Below are positions 28,832 to 45,370 of a stretch of DNA of 46,170 nucleotides, in pieces. Both the position numbers and the translations under genes were made by a program. The notes below the pieces were generated by a model that was given only the letters and a program-made list of their open reading frames with translations, had not been told where the DNA came from and ran no database searches. The stretch covers positions 101,964 through 148,133 of the forward strand of contig JAHYIW010000002.1 in assembly GCA_019429445.1 (NCBI GenBank), read 5' to 3'. Positions within the stretch are counted from its first letter, which is position 1; each line of letters opens with the position of its first letter. Source of the stretch: Desulfuromonadaceae bacterium. GTDB taxonomy: Bacteria > Desulfobacterota > Desulfuromonadia > Desulfuromonadales > JAHYIW01.

Positions 28832-30736
28832 TTAGTTCAACTGCCACGCTACGCGGACATCGTCTTGGCGCAAAGTGTACTTTAATTCATCGAAATGTTC
28901 CAGTAATGCCTGGGTCTGTTTGCGGGCGCTGCCGATCAGGTCGCGAAACTCTGCCAGGGTCAGGGTTTCATGCTGTGAAAAGTGCGCTCGCAGCTGGTTG
29001 AGCGCCTGCGCGTAGCTGTCACGATGGAGAAAACTTTCGGCGTTGAGCCGCACCAGCTCTCCCTGGGCAAAGAGGTAGCCGAACAGAGCGTCGCACCCGG
29101 CCAGCTCCAGTCCCAGACGTTCGAGCATCTCCTGACGATTCTTTGCCTGCATGCCGTCCTCCCGGTAAAGCTGTTCAATCCGGTCGATCTGTACCTGCTG
29201 GGCAGGCGTCGGTCGGGGCGTGAAGTCTGGAAGGGCAATAGTGCCGTTGACTTCACATAATCTGCCGCTTGCGGTCAGGTCATTGAGCAGTTGATCGAAA
29301 CTTTTCGGCGCCAGCTGCCTGGGCAGCGAACTTTTCAAAGTTGCGCGGGGAATGCCAGTCAGGAGCGGTTGCTGGTGGTGAAATGCGGCGGTCACGTCAT
29401 GCAGGCGGCGTTGCCAGGCGCGGTGCGTGGCAACGGTCAGCCATTGCTCACCGAGCTGGACGATGCGCTCCTGAGCGGCGAGCGCTTGCAGGTTTTCCTG
29501 AATGCGCTCCCGTCCCAGACCTGCGAGCTGTTCCAGTTCCTTGAGCTTGCAGCAGGTCGCCTGCTCGATTTTCTGGAGTAGAAAGGCTTTCTCGCCAGAT
29601 TCCAGCTCCTGCAACGCGTGCAGGACGTCGGCACGGAAGCGGCGATGTTTGACCGGTCGCGAGTCGAGGATTTTACCCCCGCCGATAGTTGTCATCGGTG
29701 AGTAAGAACGGATGATGAAACGATCTTCGCGATGGGCGACCAGCGGTCGGTCCAGATGGATCTGCACAACGGCACTCTCCCCCGGTTGCAACTCATCACA
29801 ATCGAGGAGGGCGACCAGTCCGACCACGTGGGCGGTGCCGAGATAAAAGTGCACCGGGTCGCGAAACTTCAGTGGCCGTGGCGCGTTGGCGAGCAAGGTC
29901 AGGCGGACATCGATGCGTTCGGTCTGTTCAAAAATACCGGGGGTGGCGGCGACCGCGCCGCGCTGCAACAGGGCGCGTTCAACGCCGGTCAGATTCAGGG
30001 CGGCGCGCTGTCCGGCGCGGGCGGCAGGAACTTTTTTGCCGTGGACCTGAACTTCCCTGACGCGGGTTTCGATCCCGCGGGGCAATAATTCCAGCGTGTC
30101 GCCAACCTGAACGGTACCGGCGAGCAGCGTTCCGGTAACGACAGTGCCGAAACCGGGGACGCTGAAATGGCGGTCAATCGGCAGCCGCAACGGCCCCTGA
30201 TGATCTTTGATTGCCAGCGCCGCCGCTTCGGTTGCGATCTGAGTCTTGAGTTCCGCGATGCCGTCCCCCGTAATCGCCGAGACCCGCAGCAGTGGGGCGC
30301 CTTTCAAAAAGGTGGCAGCGACTTCTTCGCGCACTTCCTCTTCGACAATATCGATCCAGTCCTCTTCGGCGAGATCACATTTGGTCAGTACGATAATGCC
30401 GCGTTCGATGTCGAGCAGGTTGAGGATCTGCAGGTGTTCGCGGGTCTGCGGCATCACCCCTTCATTGACGTCGATCACCAGCAGCACCAGATCGATCCCG
30501 CCGATCCCGGCGAGCATGGTGCTGATGAAACGCTCATGACCAGGGACATCGACCACCCCGGCGAGGCTGCCATCCGGCAGGCGAAAGAGGGCGAATCCGA
30601 GTTCAATCGAAATGCCGCGTTCTTTTTCTTCGCGCAGGCGGTCAGTTTCAATCCCGGTCAGAGCGCGGATCAGCTCGGTCTTGCCGTGATCAACATGCCC
30701 GGCGGTACCGATGATCAGATGATTAACGGGACTCAT
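28832..30736 (-). CDS. selB: Selenocysteine-specific elongation factor
   Basis: SelB carries Sec-tRNA(Sec) to the ribosome at UGA codons marked by a SECIS hairpin. The 634-residue protein starts [20 protein letters not shown], with the P-loop GHVDHGKTE, switch [10 protein letters not shown] and guanine-binding TKCD. Domains II and III follow, then a C-terminal half (about 375-634) of winged-helix repeats that bind the SECIS RNA. I use the ATG at 30736, which overlaps the selA stop by 4 bases; a longer frame to 30901 lies inside selA and is spurious. It is placed between selA and selD in one operon. Confidence 0.96.
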
Positions 30737-32148
30737 TGCGCCGGGGACGGCAGCAATGCTGCGGCGAGAGATGTGACGAGGGCAGGTTCTTCGTCGGGGT
30801 GCAGGGTGCGCAGGTGGAGCAATAAGCGCTCGTCGCGGATACAGCCGATGACCGGGGGGGCGGTGTGGCGCAGACGTTTGGCGAGGGTGTCGACCGAGCA
30901 ATCGGTCGGTGCCACGGCGACGGCGTAGCCGGGGAGTTCGGTCAGGGGCAGGGCGCCGCCACCGATGGCGGCGCTGGCGGCGATCGTATCGATTCGGGCA
31001 GTGGCACCAAGCGCTGCGGCCAGCTTGCCGGTGAGGATTGTGGCACGCCGGTGTAATTCCTCCTCCGGCGCGGTGAGCATCCGCAACGTCGGGATTTCGC
31101 GTGCGGCGCGGTCACGGTCGAGGTAAAGCGCCAACGTCGCTTCGAGTGCCGCCAGCGTCATTTTGTCGATGCGCAGGGCGCGCGCCAGCGGGTGCTGACG
31201 GATCTTGTCGAGCGCCCATTTCTGGCCGACGATAATCCCCGCCTGCGGGCCGCCGAAGAGTTTGTCGCCGCTACAGGTGACGACATCGAGTCCCGTCCTG
31301 ACGGTGTCCGCGACCGTCGGTTCAGCGGGTAATCCGTAAGCACTGAGGTCAAAGAGCAGCCCGCTCCCCAGATCTTCCATCACCGGAACTTTGGCTTCGG
31401 CGCCGAGCTTGACCAGCTCTGCGCCGCTGACGGTGGCGGTGAAGCCGACGATGCGGTAGTTGCTGGTGTGAATCTTGAGCAGCAGTCCGGTTTCGGCGTT
31501 GAGGGCGTCCTGATAATCTTGCAGATGGGTTTTGTTGGTGGTGCCGATTTCACGCAAACGCACGCCGCTGGCGGCCATGACATCGGGAACCCGGAAGGAA
31601 CCGCCGATCTCAATCAGTTCGCCGCGCGAGACCGGCGCTTCTTTCCCGTGTGCCAGCGCCGCCAGCGCCAGCAGCACGGCACCGGCGTTGTTGTTGACGA
31701 CCGTCGCGGCTTCAGCCCCGGTGAGGCGACAGAGCAACGCCTCCACATGGCTGTAGCGGTGCCCACGATGGCCGCTGACCAGATCATATTCCAGATTTGA
31801 ATAACTGCGCGAGATCGCGGTTGCCGCGTTGAGGGCGGCTTCGCACAGTGGTGCGCGACCGAGATTGGTATGGAGCAGGGTGCCGGTGGCGTTGATCAGC
31901 GGGCGCAACGAGGGGCGCATCTTCTGTTGCGCCAGTTGCGCCGCGCGGTGGGCGACGGCGGCAAAAGAAAGGTCGAGCGTCGCCGTCGGCGCGTCAAGGA
32001 GTTCGCGGCGCAGTTGCGCCACCGTTTCGCGGGCCGCCTCGGTCAGCAAGAGCGCCGGGCAGTCCTTTGCCAACTCGGTCAGAGGCGAGGTGGCGAGGAG
32101 CCGGTCGATGGCGGGAAGATCTTTTAACCGCTGCTGGGTCTGATTCAT
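30733..32148 (-). CDS. selA: L-seryl-tRNA(Sec) selenium transferase
   Basis: SelA is a PLP enzyme that converts Ser-tRNA(Sec) to Sec-tRNA(Sec) using selenophosphate. The 471-residue protein has the N-terminal LPAIDRLLATSPL, the core NATGTLLHTNLGRAPL, VNNNAGAVLLALAALAHGKE, SRGELIEIGGSFRVPDVM and the PLP lysine Lys296 in CSGDKLFGGPQAGIIVG. I use the ATG at 32148 rather than a TTG at 32184, since it gives the usual N-terminus. selB starts within its stop codon. Upstream is a 289-base gap, in which I see no tRNA(Sec) gene, and then the ArsR-type gene on the same strand. Confidence 0.97.
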   Translation of the reverse strand: MNQTQQRLKDLPAIDRLLATSPLTELAKDCPALLLTEAARETVAQLRRELLDAPTATLDLSFAAVAHRAAQLAQQKMRPSLRPLINATGTLLHTNLGRAPLCEAALNAATAISRSYSNLEYDLVSGHRGHRYSHVEALLCRLTGAEAATVVNNNAGAVLLALAALAHGKEAPVSRGELIEIGGSFRVPDVMAASGVRLREIGTTNKTHLQDYQDALNAETGLLLKIHTSNYRIVGFTATVSGAELVKLGAEAKVPVMEDLGSGLLFDLSAYGLPAEPTVADTVRTGLDVVTCSGDKLFGGPQAGIIVGQKWALDKIRQHPLARALRIDKMTLAALEATLALYLDRDRAAREIPTLRMLTAPEEELHRRATILTGKLAAALGATARIDTIAASAAIGGGALPLTELPGYAVAVAPTDCSVDTLAKRLRHTAPPVIGCIRDERLLLHLRTLHPDEEPALVTSLAAALLPSPAQ

Positions 32149-36151: not shown

Positions 36152-37093
36152 ATGACACTGAATATTATTCTTTTTTTCGCAGGGTTGTTATTGCTCTACT
36201 ATGGAGCTGAATATCTGGTTACCGGAAGCACCCACCTGGCATTATCCTATGGAGTCAGACCCTTGGTGATCGGACTGACGGTCGTCTCTTTCGCCACCAG
36301 TATGCCGGAGTTGATGGTGTCGCTCTTTGCCTCGGTCAAGGGGGTATCGGCGATCGCCGCAGGAAACATTATTGGTTCAAACGTTGCCAACATCGGTTTG
36401 ATCCTGGGGAGTGCGGCTCTGTTTTTCCCGATCCGGAGCGGGCGGGGGATCTTGTTTCGCGAACTACCTTACATGGTGTTAGCCTCCATGGTTGTTTACG
36501 GCTTTTCCTGGGATGGTCAACTGACCGCCGGTGAAGGCGTTGTGCTGCTGTTTATGCTGGTGGCTTTTCTTTATTACTGTATCCGTACCGCCCGTGAGGG
36601 GGAGGTGGACACATCTTTTGTTGACGATACCAGGGAGATCGTTGTGCCGACGCGGGGGCGTTGGGTTGTTTATGTGGTTCTCGGTATCGTCGGTCTCGGT
36701 ATCGGCGCGGAGCTGATGGTGCGCTCAGCAGTAGCGATTGCCCTCACTTTCGGTGTCTCCGAGGCGGTGATCGGCATGAGTGTCGTCGCCGTTGGGACCA
36801 GTCTGCCAGAACTGGCGGCGTCGGTGGTGAGTGCCTGGAAGGGTGAAATGGAATTGAGTATCGGCAATGCAATCGGCAGCAACATCTTTAATCTGCTCTT
36901 TGTCTTTGGTTCGTGTGCACTGATTCGCCCCATCGAGATCGAACCATCCTTGCTTTTTCGTGAATTGCCGGTGATGCTGCTCTTCAGTGTTGCCCTCTGG
37001 CCGTTGATGTACTTTGGTCATGCTCTTGATCGTAAAAAAGGATTTGGACTGCTGGTGGCCTACGCCGGATTTATGGTAATGATCTTTCAATGA
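36152..37093 (+). CDS. Ca2+/Na+ (cation) antiporter of the YrbG/CaCA family
   Basis: A 313-residue exchanger with about ten membrane helices. The two alpha repeats are clear: VVSFATSMPELMVSL with GNIIGSNVANIGLILG, and VVAVGTSLPELAASVV with GNAIGSNIFNLLFVFG; Glu and Asn in these segments bind the cation. CaCA proteins of this build export calcium, usually against sodium or protons. Its stop overlaps the start of the DUF3108-like gene (ATGA), so the two are coupled. An EF-hand-like protein encoded 1.6 kb downstream raises the possibility of a calcium theme in this region. Confidence 0.92.
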   Translation: MTLNIILFFAGLLLLYYGAEYLVTGSTHLALSYGVRPLVIGLTVVSFATSMPELMVSLFASVKGVSAIAAGNIIGSNVANIGLILGSAALFFPIRSGRGILFRELPYMVLASMVVYGFSWDGQLTAGEGVVLLFMLVAFLYYCIRTAREGEVDTSFVDDTREIVVPTRGRWVVYVVLGIVGLGIGAELMVRSAVAIALTFGVSEAVIGMSVVAVGTSLPELAASVVSAWKGEMELSIGNAIGSNIFNLLFVFGSCALIRPIEIEPSLLFRELPVMLLFSVALWPLMYFGHALDRKKGFGLLVAYAGFMVMIFQ

Positions 37094-37917
37094 AAACTTT
37101 CACGAAAATTGTTATCGCCCTGATAATGCTGTGCGTCCCGACGCTGGTCGCGGCCAACGCGCCAGACCGTCCACCGTCGTTCCTTATCGGGAGTCATTAC
37201 CGCTACGATATTTCCTTTCTTTGGTTTGATCGTCTGGCGTCAGGGGAGTTGAGTCTTGCCGCCACCGCGATCCCCGGGCAATATCAGGCGACGCTCGAAG
37301 CGCGCACCCTGGGTGTTGCCGCATGGTTGACCGGAAATCGCGTGCATCGTTACGTTGCGTTGATGGAAGCAACCGCTGATGATGGCAGACTGCGGACGCT
37401 GCGTTTTGAATCACACGTGATCAAGGGGCAAGGTAAAAAACTGAAAGATCGTGCCAAGGAGTACGTTTTCAACTACGAAAAAAAGCGGGTCGATTTTCGT
37501 CGCGCAAGTAACGATCAGTTCAGTCCGATCGAGGTGCTGCCGATGGGGGATCCCCCGTTGAACGATTTTCTGACTGTTTTTACAAATTTCAGGATGGGAT
37601 TTTTCGGTTCCCCCGCGCCGGGAGAAACTCTCGAACTGGACACCTTTGAGCGTGGTCATCCTGCCACAATAATCGTCACGGCAATGCCCCCGTCCCCTGC
37701 TGAGCACCAAACGTTTTTTCCGCCAGGGGGGAAACTTTTTCAGATCAGCATGGGGGATGATATTCTTGATACTGGTGGCGGAAAAGTTTTTCTCTGGTTT
37801 GACTCGCTGGAACGACCAGCGCGCGCGGTGGTGGAAAACGTGATCGGGATAGGGGACGTCAAGGGGACGTTGCGTGAAGAACAGGCAGCCGGGGAGGGTG
37901 GACAGATAAAAAAATGA
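37090..37917 (+). CDS. DUF3108-like periplasmic protein
   Basis: A 275-residue exported protein. A signal peptide (FTKIVIALIMLCVPTLVAANA) precedes a beta-rich domain resembling DUF3108 (YDISFLWFDRLASGELSL, FESHVIKGQGKKLKDR, VFLWFDSLERPARAVVEN). DUF3108 proteins are periplasmic or outer-membrane associated with no established role. It begins within the exchanger's stop codon, and its own stop overlaps the stem of a minus-strand terminator. Function unknown. Confidence 0.78.
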   Translation: MKTFTKIVIALIMLCVPTLVAANAPDRPPSFLIGSHYRYDISFLWFDRLASGELSLAATAIPGQYQATLEARTLGVAAWLTGNRVHRYVALMEATADDGRLRTLRFESHVIKGQGKKLKDRAKEYVFNYEKKRVDFRRASNDQFSPIEVLPMGDPPLNDFLTVFTNFRMGFFGSPAPGETLELDTFERGHPATIIVTAMPPSPAEHQTFFPPGGKLFQISMGDDILDTGGGKVFLWFDSLERPARAVVENVIGIGDVKGTLREEQAAGEGGQIKK

Positions 37918-38113: not shown

Positions 38114-38428
38114 TTACTTGACGTGGCAATCTTTACAGCCGGTCGGGCCGTTGCCTTTTTGGTGGCAGTCTTTGCACAATTTGTGGAACGCGTCTTTAGC
38201 TTTTGGCGCTTTTTTGCCGTCGTGGCAGCTGGCGCAGGTTCCGGCTTCAACGCCTTTGTGGTGGCAGGTGGTGCAGTCGCCAACTGAAGCCTGGTGAGCC
38301 TGGTGCGGGAAAGTAACCGTACCCATTTTGGCTTCGAGGGTGATTTTTTCCGGGCCATTGTTGGCGATGGCGATCGCGGCGACGCTCAAAAAGCAGACAG
38401 CGACCAGAGTGATGATAATGCGTTTCAT
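38114..38428 (-). CDS. Tetraheme cytochrome c3-family protein, periplasmic
   Basis: A 104-residue precursor; the signal peptide (MKRIIITLVAVCFLSVAAIAIA) sends it to the periplasm. The mature chain has four CXXCH motifs (CTTCH, CASCH, CKDCH twice) and exactly eight histidines, enough for four bis-His hemes: FPHQAHQ supplies two axial ligands, the second His in CHHK one and FHKLC one. This is the class III (c3) pattern; Geobacter PpcA relatives have three hemes. It would shuttle electrons between the inner membrane and outer-membrane conduits. ATG at 38428 with GGAGGTAA upstream. Divergent from the membrane-anchored HTH gene, with 236 bases between. Confidence 0.93.
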   Translation of the reverse strand: MKRIIITLVAVCFLSVAAIAIANNGPEKITLEAKMGTVTFPHQAHQASVGDCTTCHHKGVEAGTCASCHDGKKAPKAKDAFHKLCKDCHQKGNGPTGCKDCHVK

Positions 38429-38664
38429 ACCTGTTACCTCCATTGAATGTTCGTGAAAGCATTTTCACGTTGTCGCAACTATAGTCAGATTTGTCATTTG
38501 TGTATAGCCGACATCAGGCTGAGCGTCGCTAGATGTCTATCGACATTGTAAAAATATCAGCATGTTACACGTTGTAATGTCGGGTTATTTACGCCATGGT
38601 TTTTGTTGTTTGCGCTTTTTTGGCGTCTTTGTTATAGTCCCTCCGATCAAGTGGAGAGATACGT

Positions 38665-39594
38665 ATGCCCCCAATTTTCAACCCGACAGTTGAGCTGGAT
38701 GGTGCCGCTGTGCGTCGTATTCGTGAGACGAAGCGTTTGACGCAACTGTATGTTGCCAAAGTTGTCGGGGTGACGACCGACACAATCTCACGTTGGGAAA
38801 ACAACCGTTATCCATCGATCAAGCGGGAGAATCTTCTCGGGTTGGCCCAGGCGCTGGAAGTTGCTCCCCAATCTCTGCTTCATGCCCCTGATGCTGAAAC
38901 CGAAATTCCCCCTGCACCGGCATCTCTGCGCCCCTCTCTGCTGCGCCGGAAGCGCGGGTGGTTGTGGTCAGTGTCAATATTTTTTCTCGTTCTTTTGGTT
39001 GTTTATTATTTTTTTCAGGAACCTGTAATCACGTTCGTCACTGAAATCAATGCCCGACGCATATTGCCGACGTATGCTGCTCCGGGAGCTGTTGTTCCGG
39101 TGCGGATTACGCTGGCGATTGATGCCCCGACCGGCGGTTTTATCGTGCGGGAACATTTTCCGGTCGGCTGGAAGTTGATCGAAGCAAGCCCGCCGGCATC
39201 AAGTCTGGATAATGTTGAAGGGATGGCTCGCTGGATTGTCAAGGCAGGGGACGTGCCGCCGGTGATCTCCTACTTAATCAGGGTGAACAGTGTTGCTGCA
39301 AGCGGCAACAAGGGGATATTTAAAGGGGATGTTGTCTTGCGCCAGAATAAAAATAATACCCCTGCGGTGATTCATGGTGATGACGAGGTGTATATTCAGC
39401 CCTATCATTGGGCCGATGTTGATGGCAATTCAGTGATCGATGATCGTGAAGTCCTGGAAGCTTTTGACGCTGTCGAAGCGATGAAGGATGTCCATCTGGA
39501 CTGGGACGGTCTGAGTGCCCTGTGGGATGAGGGCACCTATCGTTGGGATCAAAAGAAGGGAAAGTTTGTTTCAACCCGTTCAACGGCGCAGTAA
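38665..39594 (+). CDS. Membrane-anchored HTH protein with periplasmic domain and EF-hand-like loop
   Basis: A 309-residue protein of unusual build. Residues 13-72 are a Cro/C1-type HTH (AAVRRIRETKRLTQLYVAKV, TTDTISRWENNRYPSIK). After a basic stretch (LLRRKRG) a single membrane helix follows at 99-117. Outside is a beta-sandwich-like domain (about 135-245, PVRITLAIDAPTGGFIVREH) and a 12-residue EF-hand/dockerin-type loop DVDGNSVIDDRE with ligands Asp251, Asp253, Asn255, Asp259 and Glu262. The layout suggests a one-component transmembrane regulator. It lies upstream of the porin-cytochrome operon and divergent from cytochrome c3, so those are its likely targets. Ribosome site GGAGAG. Function inferred. 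Confidence 0.85.
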   Translation: MPPIFNPTVELDGAAVRRIRETKRLTQLYVAKVVGVTTDTISRWENNRYPSIKRENLLGLAQALEVAPQSLLHAPDAETEIPPAPASLRPSLLRRKRGWLWSVSIFFLVLLVVYYFFQEPVITFVTEINARRILPTYAAPGAVVPVRITLAIDAPTGGFIVREHFPVGWKLIEASPPASSLDNVEGMARWIVKAGDVPPVISYLIRVNSVAASGNKGIFKGDVVLRQNKNNTPAVIHGDDEVYIQPYHWADVDGNSVIDDREVLEAFDAVEAMKDVHLDWDGLSALWDEGTYRWDQKKGKFVSTRSTAQ

Positions 39595-40061: not shown

Positions 40062-41276
40062 ATGAGATCTTGGTGCAGGTTGGTTTGGTTGAGCGCGTTT
40101 GCCTTGCTGGTATTGTGGCCAGCGACGAACGCGTTTGCCGTCTCTGTCTCGGGACGTTCAAGTACAGAGATTGAGTGGTTTGACAGCGCGGACGAAAAGA
40201 CCGTGCTGCCTTTCTACCAGTATCTGCGGTTGAACGTTCGCGATATCGACGACAACGGTTTGGATTTCAGAGGCTATGGTCGGCTGGCAGACGACCTGGC
40301 AAATGAAGAAGATGTTGACAGTCAGCTCTACTACGCATACCTGGAAAAGAACAATTTGTTTAAAGATGTTGGTTTAAAATTGGGTCGGCAGTTTATTACC
40401 ACCACTGCCGGGGCGTCGATGATGGATGGATTGCAGGTGAAATATGACGGCTGGAAGAATTTCGGCGTCAAGTTGTTTGCCGGTGGTGATGTCTCCTACT
40501 ATTCCGGATACGAAAGTGGCGACATGATCGGCGGGCTGGCTTTTACGGCGAAGTTTTTCGACGATCTGAATCTGGAGTTGTCTTACCTGCAAAAGTGGGA
40601 CGATGGTGATTTGAGCCACGAACTGTTTGGCTTTGCCGCCGACTACACGTATCGTAACCTGATCAATCTTTTTGCCGATGTGCAGTATGATTACCTCAGC
40701 GATTCGATCAGTTATTTTTCGGGTGGGTTCAATTATTATCGCAGCGATTTCTGGAAATTGCGCTGCGAGTATCTCTACTCCTTGCCAGTTTTCTCATCAA
40801 CGTCAATCTATTCCGTCTTTGCAGTCAGCGAATATGAAGAGCTTTCCGCTCAGCTTGACTTCAGCCATGGCAATGGTATTCGCTCTTTTGTGCGCACGAC
40901 ACTGGAAATGTACGAAGAAGTTGATAATGCCCTGGTCTATGAACTCGGTGTAGAAAAAATCCGTACCGATCGTTTCTCCGGCTATCTGACTCTGGTTTTA
41001 CGTGATGATGAAGAAGGGCAGGAGGACAAAGGGATCAAGGCTCGTGTCGCCTACCGGTTTAATTCCACCATTCAGGCCGGGGTTGGAGCACACTATAATT
41101 CCTTTGAACGCCGTATCGAAGCGGATTCCGATACCACCTCCAGCAGCCGTTTCTGGGTTGATTGCGTCGGTACAATCACCGACACGATAAACGTGGAAGC
41201 CAAACTGGAACGGGCGGAAAGCGACCTGTGGGACGAGTATTACCGGGGCCGCGTTCGTCTGAACATCCTCTTCTGA
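40062..41276 (+). CDS. Outer-membrane beta-barrel of a porin-cytochrome conduit (OmbB-like)
   Basis: A 404-residue exported protein: signal peptide to about residue 28 (WLSAFALLVLWPATNAFA), then alternating polar/aromatic strands throughout (DLNLELSYLQKWDDG, SYFSGGFNYYRSDFWKLR) and a C-terminal strand ending RGRVRLNILF, as in outer-membrane barrels. About 20 strands could fit. In porin-cytochrome complexes such a barrel holds the periplasmic cytochrome and connects it to the surface cytochrome. The next two genes encode exactly these partners. GGGAGGT ribosome site. Sequence alone supports barrel and context; similarity to OmbB is inferred from gene order and size. Confidence 0.85.
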   Translation: MRSWCRLVWLSAFALLVLWPATNAFAVSVSGRSSTEIEWFDSADEKTVLPFYQYLRLNVRDIDDNGLDFRGYGRLADDLANEEDVDSQLYYAYLEKNNLFKDVGLKLGRQFITTTAGASMMDGLQVKYDGWKNFGVKLFAGGDVSYYSGYESGDMIGGLAFTAKFFDDLNLELSYLQKWDDGDLSHELFGFAADYTYRNLINLFADVQYDYLSDSISYFSGGFNYYRSDFWKLRCEYLYSLPVFSSTSIYSVFAVSEYEELSAQLDFSHGNGIRSFVRTTLEMYEEVDNALVYELGVEKIRTDRFSGYLTLVLRDDEEGQEDKGIKARVAYRFNSTIQAGVGAHYNSFERRIEADSDTTSSSRFWVDCVGTITDTINVEAKLERAESDLWDEYYRGRVRLNILF

Positions 41277-41289
41277 AAGGAGTGCCGAT

Positions 41290-42105
41290 ATGATTCGCAT
41301 ATTGCAACTGTTCACCGTCGGCTTGCTCCTCGGGGCATCGACACTCTGGGCCGCCGATTTCAAACATGATGTCCATCTCGACATGGCCGGCGATCCTCCC
41401 TGTATCACCTGCCATACGGCTGATGCTCAAGGTATCCAGCCGGATAAAAAAGTGTGTCTCGAGTGTCACGATCAGGCCTTTGTCAATACCGTTAAACTGC
41501 CGGGATTATTGACCCACGGTGTGACCTGGGCGCTGAATCATCGTGGACCTGCGGTCAGCAAGAGAATTGATTGCTCTGCTTGTCACGAGCAGGCTTTTTG
41601 TCTGGAGTGTCACAAGGCGGGAAGAGCCGATGAAATGGGCGCGCTGGGGAACAACATGATCAATGTCCACACCTCGGAATTCAACGTCACCCACCCGTTG
41701 GCCGCGCGGACCGATCAGCGGCTGTGTCTCAACTGTCACGAGAACAGCTATTGTGCCGATTGTCACAACAAATTTGCGCCAGAAGATCTGGCGATCGCAT
41801 CGCATCGCCGTGGATTTACCGACGGCACGCTCGGTGGTGCACATGCGACGATAAACGAAGGGCAGTGCCAAACCTGCCATCCGGGTTCCGTACTGCCGAC
41901 CCACGAGTGGTCATCCAGTCACGCCCGGGAGGCGCGTAAAAATCTGGCCACCTGCCAGGCGTGTCACCCCGAGGGGAATGTTTGTCTCAAGTGTCACAGT
42001 GCGCGCAGCGGGCTGATGGCCAACCCTCATCCCGATGATTGGAGCAGTGTCAAAAATCGTCTCGATCGTGCCAGTGACGGACGCAGTTGCCGTAAATGCC
42101 ACTAA
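41290..42105 (+). CDS. Periplasmic decaheme c-type cytochrome of a porin-cytochrome conduit (OmaB-like)
   Basis: A 271-residue precursor with a cleavable signal peptide (LLLGASTLWA-A) and no lipobox. It has ten CXXCH motifs: CITCH, CLECH, CSACH, CLECH, CLNCH, CADCH, CQTCH, CQACH, CLKCH, CRKCH, the last at the very C-terminus. One heme per ~25 residues gives a compact wire. Geobacter OmaB-type partners have eight hemes and about 230 residues; MtrA has ten and about 330. This one has MtrA's heme number in an OmaB-like size. It follows the barrel gene by 13 bases and would sit in the barrel from the periplasmic side. Confidence 0.93.
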   Translation: MIRILQLFTVGLLLGASTLWAADFKHDVHLDMAGDPPCITCHTADAQGIQPDKKVCLECHDQAFVNTVKLPGLLTHGVTWALNHRGPAVSKRIDCSACHEQAFCLECHKAGRADEMGALGNNMINVHTSEFNVTHPLAARTDQRLCLNCHENSYCADCHNKFAPEDLAIASHRRGFTDGTLGGAHATINEGQCQTCHPGSVLPTHEWSSSHAREARKNLATCQACHPEGNVCLKCHSARSGLMANPHPDDWSSVKNRLDRASDGRSCRKCH

Positions 42106-42138
42106 ATTTTATCAACAATAGAACAGGAGGTAATCTCA

Positions 42139-44514
42139 ATGCGCAAACAATGGTTAGTCTTTATCGTCGTGCTGCTGACAGGCTTTACTCTGTGGGGTTG
42201 TGGCAGCGATCGTGGAAGTGATTCATCATCCGTGACACCAATTGCCCCGGTTGCCGATGCAGCTAAATCCGGAAACTGTAAACTGTGTCACACGCTGGAT
42301 GTTCATACAGCATTCAGCGCGCTGGTAGGTCAAAACCCGGACACAACTTTGGGGTTGGGATCTGCAATAAAACATGACTGTGAAGATTGTCATGGTGGCG
42401 GTCAATATCACCGCGGTGTGGGGCCGATCCCGTATCCGGCACCAGAGATAACCCGTTGTGAAACTTGCCACACTCAAGCGACCAAGGTGATCGCTTCCAA
42501 ACACACTAATGGTCGCGGCCATGATACAGAAGCCGTCTGCCAGCGCTGCCATACGGCTGAAGGTGCTTTCGAATTTGCCAACTACACGGGCGACAAAGAT
42601 GTCAACCTGTTAAATACCGGCACGGCACTCGTCAGTGTCAATGGTAACACCTGTGGCGCTTGTCATGATCCGCTGAACGGAACGATGCGTGAAGTAGCAG
42701 GTTGGGATCCCAACGCTAATGGCACCGCTGACCAGTTCGACCTCTGTACCAGCTGTCACACCTACTACAACAAGGACGGGCTTCTGGTCGGTTCCGGTTC
42801 GCTCGCTTCGAGAACCGCACCCTACTACCACAACACCTCCTGGTACCGGACCATTACTACCACTCACTTCGACGATCCGGCAACCAGCTACGAGGTGGCA
42901 GATGCCGCAGCTGTATGTGATGATGCTGACCCAACCTATGATGCAGCAGCATGTTCTGCATTGAACGCCATCGAGGGTTATGTCCTGCGTGAAACCGGTG
43001 ACAACCCCTGCTTCGATTGTCACGGACACGAACTGCGCACGAACACCCGGCGGCACCTCGACGCCCCGACGGACGCCGACCGTGGTCCGACCATTCACAC
43101 CGACTGGGCCAATTCCCGCCATGGTGGCGAGCTGCTCAAAGCTAAGGTTGCGGCAGCTGTTGCCAACCCCCAAACTGGAACTCGAGGCTCAGACGAATAC
43201 ACGACTAGCGGTATAACCCAGGTTGATGCCGTCATGGCGGCCGGTCGCGAAGACGGTGTTGGCCACGGCTGGAGCTGGACGCACTACCCTTGGGATAAGA
43301 CCAACGACACTGTCGCCGGTGACCGCACAGGCCGCGCTGATTGTCAGAGATGTCATACCTCCACCGGCGTCTCAAATTTCCTGACCGCTCCGGACACTTA
43401 CGATCCAGCCAATAACGATTTCAGCCACCTCGTCAATTGGAATGCCACAGACGGTTCGCCGCAGAGCGAAATGCTCTACTGCTGGGGCTGTCACGTTAGC
43501 GTTGACACCGGTGAACTCCGTGATCCGGGCGCGCTGACCATCGACTACTCCAATAACGCCAGCGTCACCTTCCCCGATTCGGCGGCTTCTAACGTCTGTA
43601 TTGCCTGCCACAGTGGTCGCGAAAACGGCGACAGCATCAAGAAAGATACGAGTACAACAGGCGTTCGTAGCTTCCTCAATTCCCACTACCTGAACGCAGG
43701 TGGTATTCTGTTCGCCAAGGGTGGGTATGAGTATGACAGTATGAATTATGACTTCGCCGCAGGCGACCGCCATCAGAACATCGGCTACGGTTCTGCGACG
43801 CCGACCGGCGATGCTAATTTTGATGCTGTCAGCGATGATTATACCAGCGGGCCCTGCGTCACCTGCCACTTTGACAGTTCCGACGTCAATGGTCTCGATC
43901 GTTCGCATACGCTCAGTCCATTCACTGAAACAGTTGCTGATGGCACCGTGCTCAATTCGGTCTGTGTTAAGTGTCACACCGCTCGTGGCGTTGGCGACTC
44001 TGCTAATAAATGGTTCGGTAAGGACTTCGTCGAAGCCGACTTTGTTGCTGCACGAGAAACCTGGGATCTTGATAATACTAAACAGCCCCCTCATAAAGGC
44101 CGTCTGTTAGCGGCGCAACTGACCTTGCAGAACGTACTTGCAAGCAAAGGGATCCTCACCGACTTCTCGGCGTATCCGTACTTCTTCGCGGATAGCGGTT
44201 ACGGCGAAGGAATCGCCGACAACGGTATTCTCGAGGCAGGCGAAGTTAACCGCCTCAATGGTTTCACCAACTGGGCCAGCATCTATGGCCTTGATCAATG
44301 GAAAAACGTCATGGGCGCTGCTTTCAATCTCAACCTGATCGCCCACGATCCGGGCGCCACGGCCCACAACCGCCGCTATGCCCGGCGCTTGATCTATGAT
44401 TCCATCGATTTCATGGATGATGGCATCATGAACGATTCGACCAAAGCTACGGTAACCGCACAGGCGCAGCTCTATGAGCCATTTGCACTCAATTATATCG
44501 GCAGCCGCCCGTAA
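42139..44514 (+). CDS. Outer-surface dodecaheme c-type cytochrome lipoprotein (OmcB-like)
   Basis: A 791-residue lipoprotein; the lipobox LWGC puts the lipid on Cys21. Twelve CXXCH motifs run through the chain: CKLCH, CEDCH, CETCH, CQRCH, CGACH, CTSCH, CFDCH, CQRCH, CWGCH, CIACH, CVTCH, CVKCH. Heme number, size and stretches such as YCWGCHVSVDTGELRDPGAL resemble Geobacter OmcB. The last ~180 residues have no heme and include an Asp/Glu-rich IADNGILEAGEVN that might bind calcium. Exposed on the cell surface, it would pass electrons to metals or other acceptors. AGGAGG eight bases upstream; a strong terminator follows, so this ends the operon. Confidence 0.92.
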   Translation: MRKQWLVFIVVLLTGFTLWGCGSDRGSDSSSVTPIAPVADAAKSGNCKLCHTLDVHTAFSALVGQNPDTTLGLGSAIKHDCEDCHGGGQYHRGVGPIPYPAPEITRCETCHTQATKVIASKHTNGRGHDTEAVCQRCHTAEGAFEFANYTGDKDVNLLNTGTALVSVNGNTCGACHDPLNGTMREVAGWDPNANGTADQFDLCTSCHTYYNKDGLLVGSGSLASRTAPYYHNTSWYRTITTTHFDDPATSYEVADAAAVCDDADPTYDAAACSALNAIEGYVLRETGDNPCFDCHGHELRTNTRRHLDAPTDADRGPTIHTDWANSRHGGELLKAKVAAAVANPQTGTRGSDEYTTSGITQVDAVMAAGREDGVGHGWSWTHYPWDKTNDTVAGDRTGRADCQRCHTSTGVSNFLTAPDTYDPANNDFSHLVNWNATDGSPQSEMLYCWGCHVSVDTGELRDPGALTIDYSNNASVTFPDSAASNVCIACHSGRENGDSIKKDTSTTGVRSFLNSHYLNAGGILFAKGGYEYDSMNYDFAAGDRHQNIGYGSATPTGDANFDAVSDDYTSGPCVTCHFDSSDVNGLDRSHTLSPFTETVADGTVLNSVCVKCHTARGVGDSANKWFGKDFVEADFVAARETWDLDNTKQPPHKGRLLAAQLTLQNVLASKGILTDFSAYPYFFADSGYGEGIADNGILEAGEVNRLNGFTNWASIYGLDQWKNVMGAAFNLNLIAHDPGATAHNRRYARRLIYDSIDFMDDGIMNDSTKATVTAQAQLYEPFALNYIGSRP

Positions 44515-44556: not shown

Positions 44557-44596
44557 ACACAAAAAAGCTCCCGCTTCGGCGGGGGCTTTTTTGTGT
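44557..44596 (+). terminator. Rho-independent terminator of the porin-cytochrome operon
   Basis: An 18-bp stem with TTCG loop: ACACAAAAAAGCTCCCGC pairs with its complement (one G-T pair), and the right arm carries TTTTTT. It lies 42 bases past the dodecaheme stop. Confidence 0.93.
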
Positions 44597-44727: not shown

Positions 44728-45198
44728 ATGTTGATAATTGTTGATACGAATATATTTGTCGGCGCTTGTCTTGGCATGGGAGCCTCCTGCGAGGTTGTCG
44801 CTACTTGTATCAGGCAGGGAAATACCGCCTTGATGGGGACGGCTCTTTATTCAGAATATGAGGATGTTCTGTCGCGTGCTTCACTCTTTAAAAAATCACG
44901 TCTCTCGAATGATGAACGTGACGAGTTACTGAATATTTTTCTTTCTGAATGTCGTTGGACACGTATTTACTTTGGTTGGAGCCCAAATTTGCAGGATGAG
45001 GGAGATAATCATCTTGTTGAACTTGCTGTAGCCGGTGGCGCTTCGCACATTGTCACCAGAAATATTCGTGATTTGAAGTCAACGGAATTGATTTTTCCAG
45101 AAATTTCTGTGGTGACACCCGAGAAATTTCTTGAGGAGATGAGACATGGGAACAGCAATGACAGTACGTCTGCCCGAAGAAAAACACAGACGTCTTAA
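44728..45198 (+). CDS. PIN-domain toxin (PF13470-like)
   Basis: A 156-residue PIN-type ribonuclease. Acidic residues expected for the Mg site are the Asp in IIVDTNIFVGA (Asp6), the Glu in YSEYEDVLSR, the Asp in QDEGDNHLVELAV and the Asp of TRNIRDLK. The three-residue SHIVTRN segment is typical of the toxin family. PIN toxins cut tRNA or mRNA. It overlaps the ribbon-helix-helix gene by 53 bases, in toxin-first order. The C-terminal ~15 residues (SNDSTSARRKTQTS) are polar and lie in the overlap. No ribosome site is seen before the ATG. Confidence 0.88.
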   Translation: MLIIVDTNIFVGACLGMGASCEVVATCIRQGNTALMGTALYSEYEDVLSRASLFKKSRLSNDERDELLNIFLSECRWTRIYFGWSPNLQDEGDNHLVELAVAGGASHIVTRNIRDLKSTELIFPEISVVTPEKFLEEMRHGNSNDSTSARRKTQTS

Positions 45199-45370
45199 AG
45201 AGCTTGCTATCCGTCGTCATACAACTCTTAATCGTTTGATTGATGAGATGGCAACGATGCTGTTGGCCGAGAATGATGCCGAGACCAGATTTCTGTTGCG
45301 GGTTCAATCTGGGAAAGGTAAGCGGGAGAGAGGACTGGAGTTGCTTGCTAAGGCGAAACGCGGAGAGTGA
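45146..45370 (+). CDS. Ribbon-helix-helix antitoxin
   Basis: A 74-residue protein with an N-terminal ribbon-helix-helix (MTVRLPEEKHRRLKELAIRR, TTLNRLIDEMATMLL) and a basic C-terminal helix. It would neutralise the PIN toxin and repress the pair. The start ATG lies 53 bases inside the toxin gene with GAGGAGATG upstream; an internal ATG four codons later is an alternative. Family is inferred from pattern and pairing. Confidence 0.82.
   Translation: MGTAMTVRLPEEKHRRLKELAIRRHTTLNRLIDEMATMLLAENDAETRFLLRVQSGKGKRERGLELLAKAKRGE

Follow-up and report, generated by a model that had tools for sequence, protein, structure and literature searches.

An operon at positions 40062-44514 of a 46,170-nucleotide stretch of DNA from a Desulfuromonadaceae bacterium (GenBank assembly GCA_019429445.1, contig JAHYIW010000002.1; this whole stretch is the window below) raises the question of what a ten-heme cytochrome is doing in a gene cluster laid out like the porin-cytochrome conduits (Pcc) of Geobacter, in which OmaB has eight hemes (PMC4589669). 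An earlier note described a barrel of 404 amino acids (aa), a secreted 271-aa protein with ten CXXCH heme motifs and a 791-aa lipoprotein with 12, closed by a terminator, and its coordinates and counts are exact to the base. It read them as an electron conduit – a reading well supported here by anatomy and homology – whose compact periplasmic wire joins the heme count of Shewanella MtrA to an OmaB-like size and may define a separate Pcc type. Profile comparison with the OmaB-like and MtrA families places the ten-heme protein inside the Oma family, as a branch of its own, and suggests that members of this family differ by whole heme-plus-histidine units, with eight, nine or ten of them.

The three open reading frames (ORFs) lie on the + strand in the order barrel, wire and surface cytochrome, with spacers of 13 and 33 bases and, judged by eye, a Shine-Dalgarno-like stretch ahead of each ATG. 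A strong GC-rich hairpin between A and T runs at 44561-44592 (strand., a bidirectional intrinsic terminator) lies directly 3' of the last gene and closes the operon. The first gene (40062-41276, +) encodes an outer-membrane beta-barrel, an OmbB-type porin without heme motif, which AlphaFold2, given 50 family members, models as a barrel with a mean predicted local distance difference test score (pLDDT) of 89 and 22 strands, counted manually on the DSSP line. The second (41290-42105, +) encodes the presumed transmembrane wire, with CXXCH motifs at residues 38, 56, 95, 104, 146, 155, 193, 222, 232 and 267 and a signal peptide-like start (LWA/ADF, by eye); the third (42139-44514, +) encodes the 12-heme OmcB-type lipoprotein cytochrome, with a lipobox-like LWGC at its start, also judged by eye. 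A barrel, a periplasmic multiheme cytochrome and a surface multiheme lipoprotein are thus clustered as in the Pcc family, with localisation signals judged by eye. For both cytochromes Pfam offers general multiheme models only, NCBIfam matches are weak and below cut-offs, and single-sequence searches of the PDB gave nothing below E 0.4.

By profile comparison, the wire is homologous to the eight-heme OmaB-like wires of class-level relatives: hhalign aligns the ten- and eight-heme profiles over 173 columns (residues 74-271) with 41% identity, a probability of 100 and an E of 1.3e-54, and the ten- and nine-heme profiles with an E of 6.1e-87. BLAST identities of the wire to class-level relatives are 30-36%. 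Having ten CXXCH motifs, the protein is a member of the Oma family and not OmaB in the narrow sense, which has eight hemes.

In the alignments, each of the eight hemes in the class-level wires has a counterpart among the ten. One further heme lies in an N-terminal segment (approximately residues 50-77, with CLECH at 56; 41437-41520, +) that is absent from the eight- and nine-heme relatives; it occurs only in the ten-heme form and is heme 1 or heme 2, the two alignments disagreeing. The other lies in a segment around heme 7 (approximately residues 178-207, with His185 and CQTCH at 193; 41821-41910, +) that is present in nine- and ten-heme forms and absent from the 12 true eight-heme forms. Bis-histidine hemes need as many partner histidines as hemes, and the non-motif histidines conserved at 95% number 10 in the ten-heme set (67 rows), 9 in the nine-heme set (24) and 8 in the eight-heme set (12). 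Because the numbers of conserved histidines equal those of the hemes, it seems that every additional heme was gained or lost together with a ligand of its own. Fragments, ORFs shorter than 215 or longer than 345 aa, rows whose C-termini were identical and locus L059 (see below) were removed before counting; the wire of L141, dropped by an overlap rule when the named loci were read, was recovered later; L139, in which masked residues leave eight motifs to be counted, was excluded from the tree and the eight-heme profile, and L142, L143, L145 and L147 from the ten-heme profile and the histidine counts.

Wire size grows with heme count, since median ORF lengths are 232, 257.5 and 278 aa for the eight-, nine- and ten-heme sets; the phrase 'OmaB-like size' thus needs qualifying. 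So does 'compact': residues per heme, taken from the first to the last motif, have medians of 23.5, 24.1 and 23.7 in the same sets, and because these are alike and MtrA has 25.1 (PMC7399161, where the counting basis may differ from ours), the wire is not unusually dense.

In a quick tree, made without variable columns and rooted at the midpoint only, 67 of the 71 ten-heme rows form a clade with a support of 99, and all 71 together make up one side of a branch with a support of only 64. L142, L143, L145 and L147 are deep, long-branched ten-heme wires from poorly classified metagenome-assembled genomes (MAGs) that stand apart from the main ten-heme clade. A repeated origin of the eight-heme form was hinted at by this tree, but a single eight-heme clade is not rejected in the approximately unbiased (AU) test (p 0.588) and we make no claim as to how often, or in which direction, the heme number changed.

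The barrels follow the wires. Of 59 barrels whose locus also contains a wire, 58 are of the type that goes with its heme count: the 33 barrels nearest to that of the window all adjoin ten-heme wires, and among the 26 such barrels of the other type 25 adjoin eight- or nine-heme wires, the exception being L147. Barrels beside ten-heme wires and those beside eight- or nine-heme wires are homologous (hhalign E 2.6e-71 over 398 columns), and the two branches are alike in length (medians 411 and 408 aa); the barrel in the window has 23-29% identity to those of class-level relatives, one of which is cut. Judged from these comparisons, the ten-heme form is a branch of its own in the Oma family and is paired with a separate branch of barrels. 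No PDB sequence is matched by the barrel profile, and a fold search with the model returned general barrels, ushers and OprD-type porins among the first 50 matches listed.

The ten-heme form is the usual one among the order-level relatives examined and is not peculiar to this genome, where, in 2.9 Mb, the wire itself is the single match at E 0.001 or better. Among 147 genomes searched (its own included), 80 match the wire at some level, 51 of them with an E of 1e-60 or better. Inspection of 35 loci from the stronger matches, 27 at order level and 8 at class level, found ten CXXCH motifs in 27 of 28 order-level wires (ORFs of 271-306 aa) and eight motifs in 9 of 9 class-level wires (ORFs of 223-283 aa). 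The remaining order-level wire, in L059, was a candidate longer wire with 14 motifs; it was left out, its sequence repeating across N bases and its barrel running over several frames, and is most likely a scaffolding artefact. A scan of named records gave 134 relatives, and among the best 80 loci there are 78 wires with eight to ten motifs, 50 with ten, 24 with nine and four with eight, one of these four owing its count to masked residues. Because the strongest order-level matches and the best 80 of 134 named loci were chosen, the shares of ten-heme forms are not unbiased. Ten-heme wires occur in Desulfuromonadales records, Geothermobacter hydrogeniphilus, Pelovirga terrestris, Desulfuromusa kysingii and Desulfurivibrio sp. 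AMeS2 (L117), and nine-heme wires mainly in Nitrospirota MAGs, records labelled 'Deltaproteobacteria' and Geobacteraceae including Geotalea toluenoxydans. A plasmid collection gave no tblastn match to the wire at 1e-10.

The layout recurs as well. A barrel and wire with a multiheme gene next downstream are found in 64 of the 80 named loci, some others ending at a contig end, and since the arrangement is so often repeated it is not due to chance; the same gene order is seen at 26 order-level loci with ten-heme wires and 8 class-level loci with eight-heme wires, a few of them cut by contig ends. Several loci depart from it or duplicate it. In L036 a second ten-heme wire and an Omc gene follow the first operon with no second barrel between; a Nitrospirota MAG (L123) has neighbouring conduit operons, one with an eight-heme and one with a nine-heme wire, and Geotalea toluenoxydans (L146) has a nine-heme wire next to a cut-off copy, both recalling the PccF/PccG operons of Geobacter metallireducens. 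Ahead of the barrel, L078 and L086 have a 12-CXXCH gene and another whose product of about 440 aa has 20 CXXCH motifs.

The surface cytochrome of the window has 31-37% identity to four class-level 12-heme Omc proteins. All seven proteins compared with it (these four and three from order-level loci), picked for having 12 hemes, share every one of its 12 heme columns, and because of these shared columns an OmcB-type partner goes with both eight- and ten-heme wires. Elsewhere among order-level loci the third gene has 6 to 16 motifs, and some have no match to the 791-aa protein; this is in line with published replacement of the surface component (PMC6148476).

On this evidence, the operon very probably encodes a conduit for electrons through the outer membrane, a member of the OmbB-OmaB-OmcB (Pcc) family, leading through a ten-heme wire to a 12-heme surface lipoprotein. 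The functional reading goes by family: the Pcc complex of G. sulfurreducens, once isolated, carries electrons across proteoliposomes, and its genes are involved in Fe(III) reduction (PMC4245776; PMC4589669). Periplasmic cytochromes would reduce the wire, electrons would hop along its ten bis-histidine hemes, insulated inside the barrel, and the wire would pass them to the lipoprotein, which would reduce an acceptor outside the cell, for example Fe(III) or Mn(IV) oxides, elemental sulfur or an electrode; in this scheme we infer the acceptor, the way the electrons run, the ligation of the hemes by two histidines and the position of the wire inside the barrel. For Desulfurivibrio alkaliphilus, a rise of 13 multiheme cytochromes on ferrihydrite is reported, some of them marked in the legend as from a PCC cluster (PMC12545173), and the complex of this species presumably belongs to the ten-heme branch, to judge from its congener Desulfurivibrio sp. 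AMeS2.

Several points weigh against the reading as an Oma-family conduit. The region of the first heme falls outside the hhalign alignment of the ten-heme with the eight-heme set, and the eight-heme group is labelled 'OmaB' by its gene order, its heme counts and its place in the class. Lowering the conservation threshold to 85% gives 11, 9 and 8 non-motif histidines for the ten-, nine- and eight-heme sets, of which the 11 departs from the heme number. The AlphaFold2 model of the wire, made with 65 family members, is poor (pLDDT 62, predicted template modelling score (pTM) 0.33) and was set aside. One other genome of the same genus was examined (G001) and has no wire match, so the trait is patchy. 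Earlier work cited in PMC4245776, furthermore, reported that D. alkaliphilus could not grow with Fe(III) or Mn(IV) oxides.

Among the alternatives, the one that survives best, though improbable, is a mainly inward flow, in which the conduit would supply the cell with electrons from outside, the donor being for example Fe(II), sulfide minerals or a partner cell. Conduits of Pcc design can be reversible, and nine-heme relatives occur in Nitrospirota and other MAGs; most of what is known of the order Desulfuromonadales, however, concerns reducers of Fe(III) and sulfur. A survey of Fe(II) oxidizers mentions porin-cytochrome genes and OmaB (PMC5566968), but Shi et al. 2014 state that they then knew no pcc cluster in an Fe(II) oxidizer (PMC4245776).

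Slightly less probable still is a distinct Pcc type of independent origin that has converged on OmaB. The clade of 67 of the 71 ten-heme rows and the separate barrel branch would fit it, but both wire and barrel have profile-level homology to the eight- and nine-heme systems, nine-heme forms are intermediate, and a 12-heme Omc type is common to some eight- and ten-heme members. With the same family carrying eight, nine and ten hemes, the separate Pcc type suggested by the earlier note is not supported either.

That the operon encodes an MtrCAB-type conduit, with the ten-heme protein as MtrA, we consider highly unlikely. The heme count is the same, and hhalign finds a weak similarity between the ten-heme wire profile and 20 TIGR03508 (MtrA/DmsE) proteins, 15 with 9 and 5 with 10 CXXCH motifs (probability 96, E 1.3e-9, 118 columns). 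However, an Omc set, used as the background level for any two multiheme proteins, scores about the same against the wire (E 3.7e-9, over just 47 columns), and Omc (E 7.4e-20) is a better match to the TIGR03508 set than the wire is. A profile built from 12 ten-heme and seven eight-heme wires has 6btm_A (7.9e-7) and MtrF 3pmq_A (2.6e-4) as its best PDB matches and no MtrA among the chains up to E 10, whereas a TIGR03508 protein, searched as a control, recovers 6r2q_A at 4.3e-44; we take 6r2q to be the MtrCAB entry, although the search tool prints another molecule name. The 271-aa protein has no TIGR03508 match. On the side of the barrel, 3 of 50 family members weakly match Pfam MtrB_PioB (PF11854; best E 0.0013), but the 404-aa protein has no Pfam or NCBIfam match, MtrB_PioB included, and no PF11854 match was found in its genome. 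MtrB, moreover, has 26 strands, against the 22 predicted here, and MtrC has 10 hemes, against 12 in this surface cytochrome (PMC7198977). Because the profile scores are at background and MtrA is missing from the PDB matches, the likeness to MtrA noted earlier is one of heme number and not of kinship; MtrCAB of Shewanella shares a design principle and a ten-heme wire with this system, with no family-level kinship found. The same genome does encode a TIGR03508 protein above cut-off (L066; G000:C2:33549-34358), with nine CXXCH motifs, one CX3CH and a lipobox-like start.

Equally unlikely is a set of co-transcribed genes without a conduit, for example an ordinary porin whose neighbouring cytochromes, in the periplasm and on the surface, serve detoxification: Pfam Porin_4 is matched by 10 of 50 members of the barrel family (best E 5e-8) and the best structural matches of the barrel are general ones, but barrel and wire stay adjacent across phyla and barrel type tracks heme count.

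Among known systems, the conduit of the window has the gene order and the 12-heme surface cytochrome of OmbB-OmaB-OmcB and OmbC-OmaC-OmcC of Geobacter sulfurreducens (Pcc Group I), with barrel and wire families that are homologous as judged on class-level relatives; compared with OmaB, its wire has two more heme-plus-histidine units. The wire of PccF of G. metallireducens (OmbF-OmaF-OmcF, Gmet_0908-0910) is also longer than OmaB: Gmet_0909 is reported with nine and Gmet_0912 with eight heme motifs (PMC11389400; PMC10989804). OmaF, compared by this published count, would have one heme fewer than the wire described here, and the nine-heme proteins that we analysed are without the N-terminal extra heme. 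Shi et al. 2014 give 5 to 14 heme motifs for Pcc periplasmic cytochromes and 18-22 predicted strands for the barrels, ranges that include the ten motifs and 22 modelled strands found here, and report that Pcc barrels and wires fall into matching groups (PMC4245776). Their Group II comprises Desulfuromonas acetoxidans, Desulfurivibrio alkaliphilus and Desulfurispirillum indicum (PMC4245776), and the ten-heme branch is probably this group, to judge from its Desulfuromonadales and Desulfurivibrio carriers rather than from Group II heme counts. Complete ombB-omaB-omcB clusters are reported for Desulfuromonas strains AOP6, DDH964 and TF (PMC8235581), and in the Ext conduits (ExtABCD, ExtEFG and ExtHIJKL) ExtA and ExtG are reported with 12 hemes and ExtK with five (PMC6148476).

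Several other genes lie near the operon. A small 4-CXXCH periplasmic-type cytochrome outside it (38114-38443, -; Pfam Cytochrom_CIII, E 8e-11) looks secreted, and to call it a periplasmic electron donor to the conduit is only a guess. Directly upstream, an HTH_3 protein (38665-39594, +) with a central membrane-like stretch and a long tail is a possible membrane-bound regulator. A BLAST search (threshold 1e-5) of the regions flanking L031-L065 and L074-L153 matched neither these two proteins nor the ORF at 37090-37917; the same database returned matches for other queries. Just downstream, a PIN-domain ORF (44728-45370 region, +) overlaps a 74-aa ORF (45146-45370) resembling a small DNA-binding antitoxin, and the two are likely a toxin-antitoxin pair. 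Farther away, the window encodes SelB, the selenocysteine-specific elongation factor (28832-30901, -), so the genome probably uses selenocysteine.

The conduit family itself is already known, and the new point is the 8-9-10 series with its matching histidines, of which we found no statement in the literature searched, itself weak evidence of absence. A bolder proposal, which we regard as possible but doubtful, is that Oma wires are a natural length series, made longer or shorter by complete heme-plus-distal-histidine units (8, 9, 10) in similar-sized barrels, and that the ten-heme form alone spans the membrane. Liu et al. 2015 suggest that the eight-heme OmaB may be too short and may need OmcB hemes (PMC4589669). 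If the proposal is true, a barrel with a ten-heme wire could conduct without Omc, as MtrAB does; the 10.6-kb locus L109 has a barrel and a ten-heme wire, and neither of its strands carries a further ORF with a CXXCH motif.

For this order, the operon is the respiratory conduit that would be expected. One survey used a 40% identity cut-off (PMC6148476), and OmaB searches at such a cut-off would probably miss the ten-heme branch. Within the family there are three wire lengths, one heme unit apart, and to each belongs a barrel branch or sub-branch, the barrels being alike in length; this series allows one to ask how many hemes are needed for passage through the outer membrane and whether conduction depends on the outer cytochrome.

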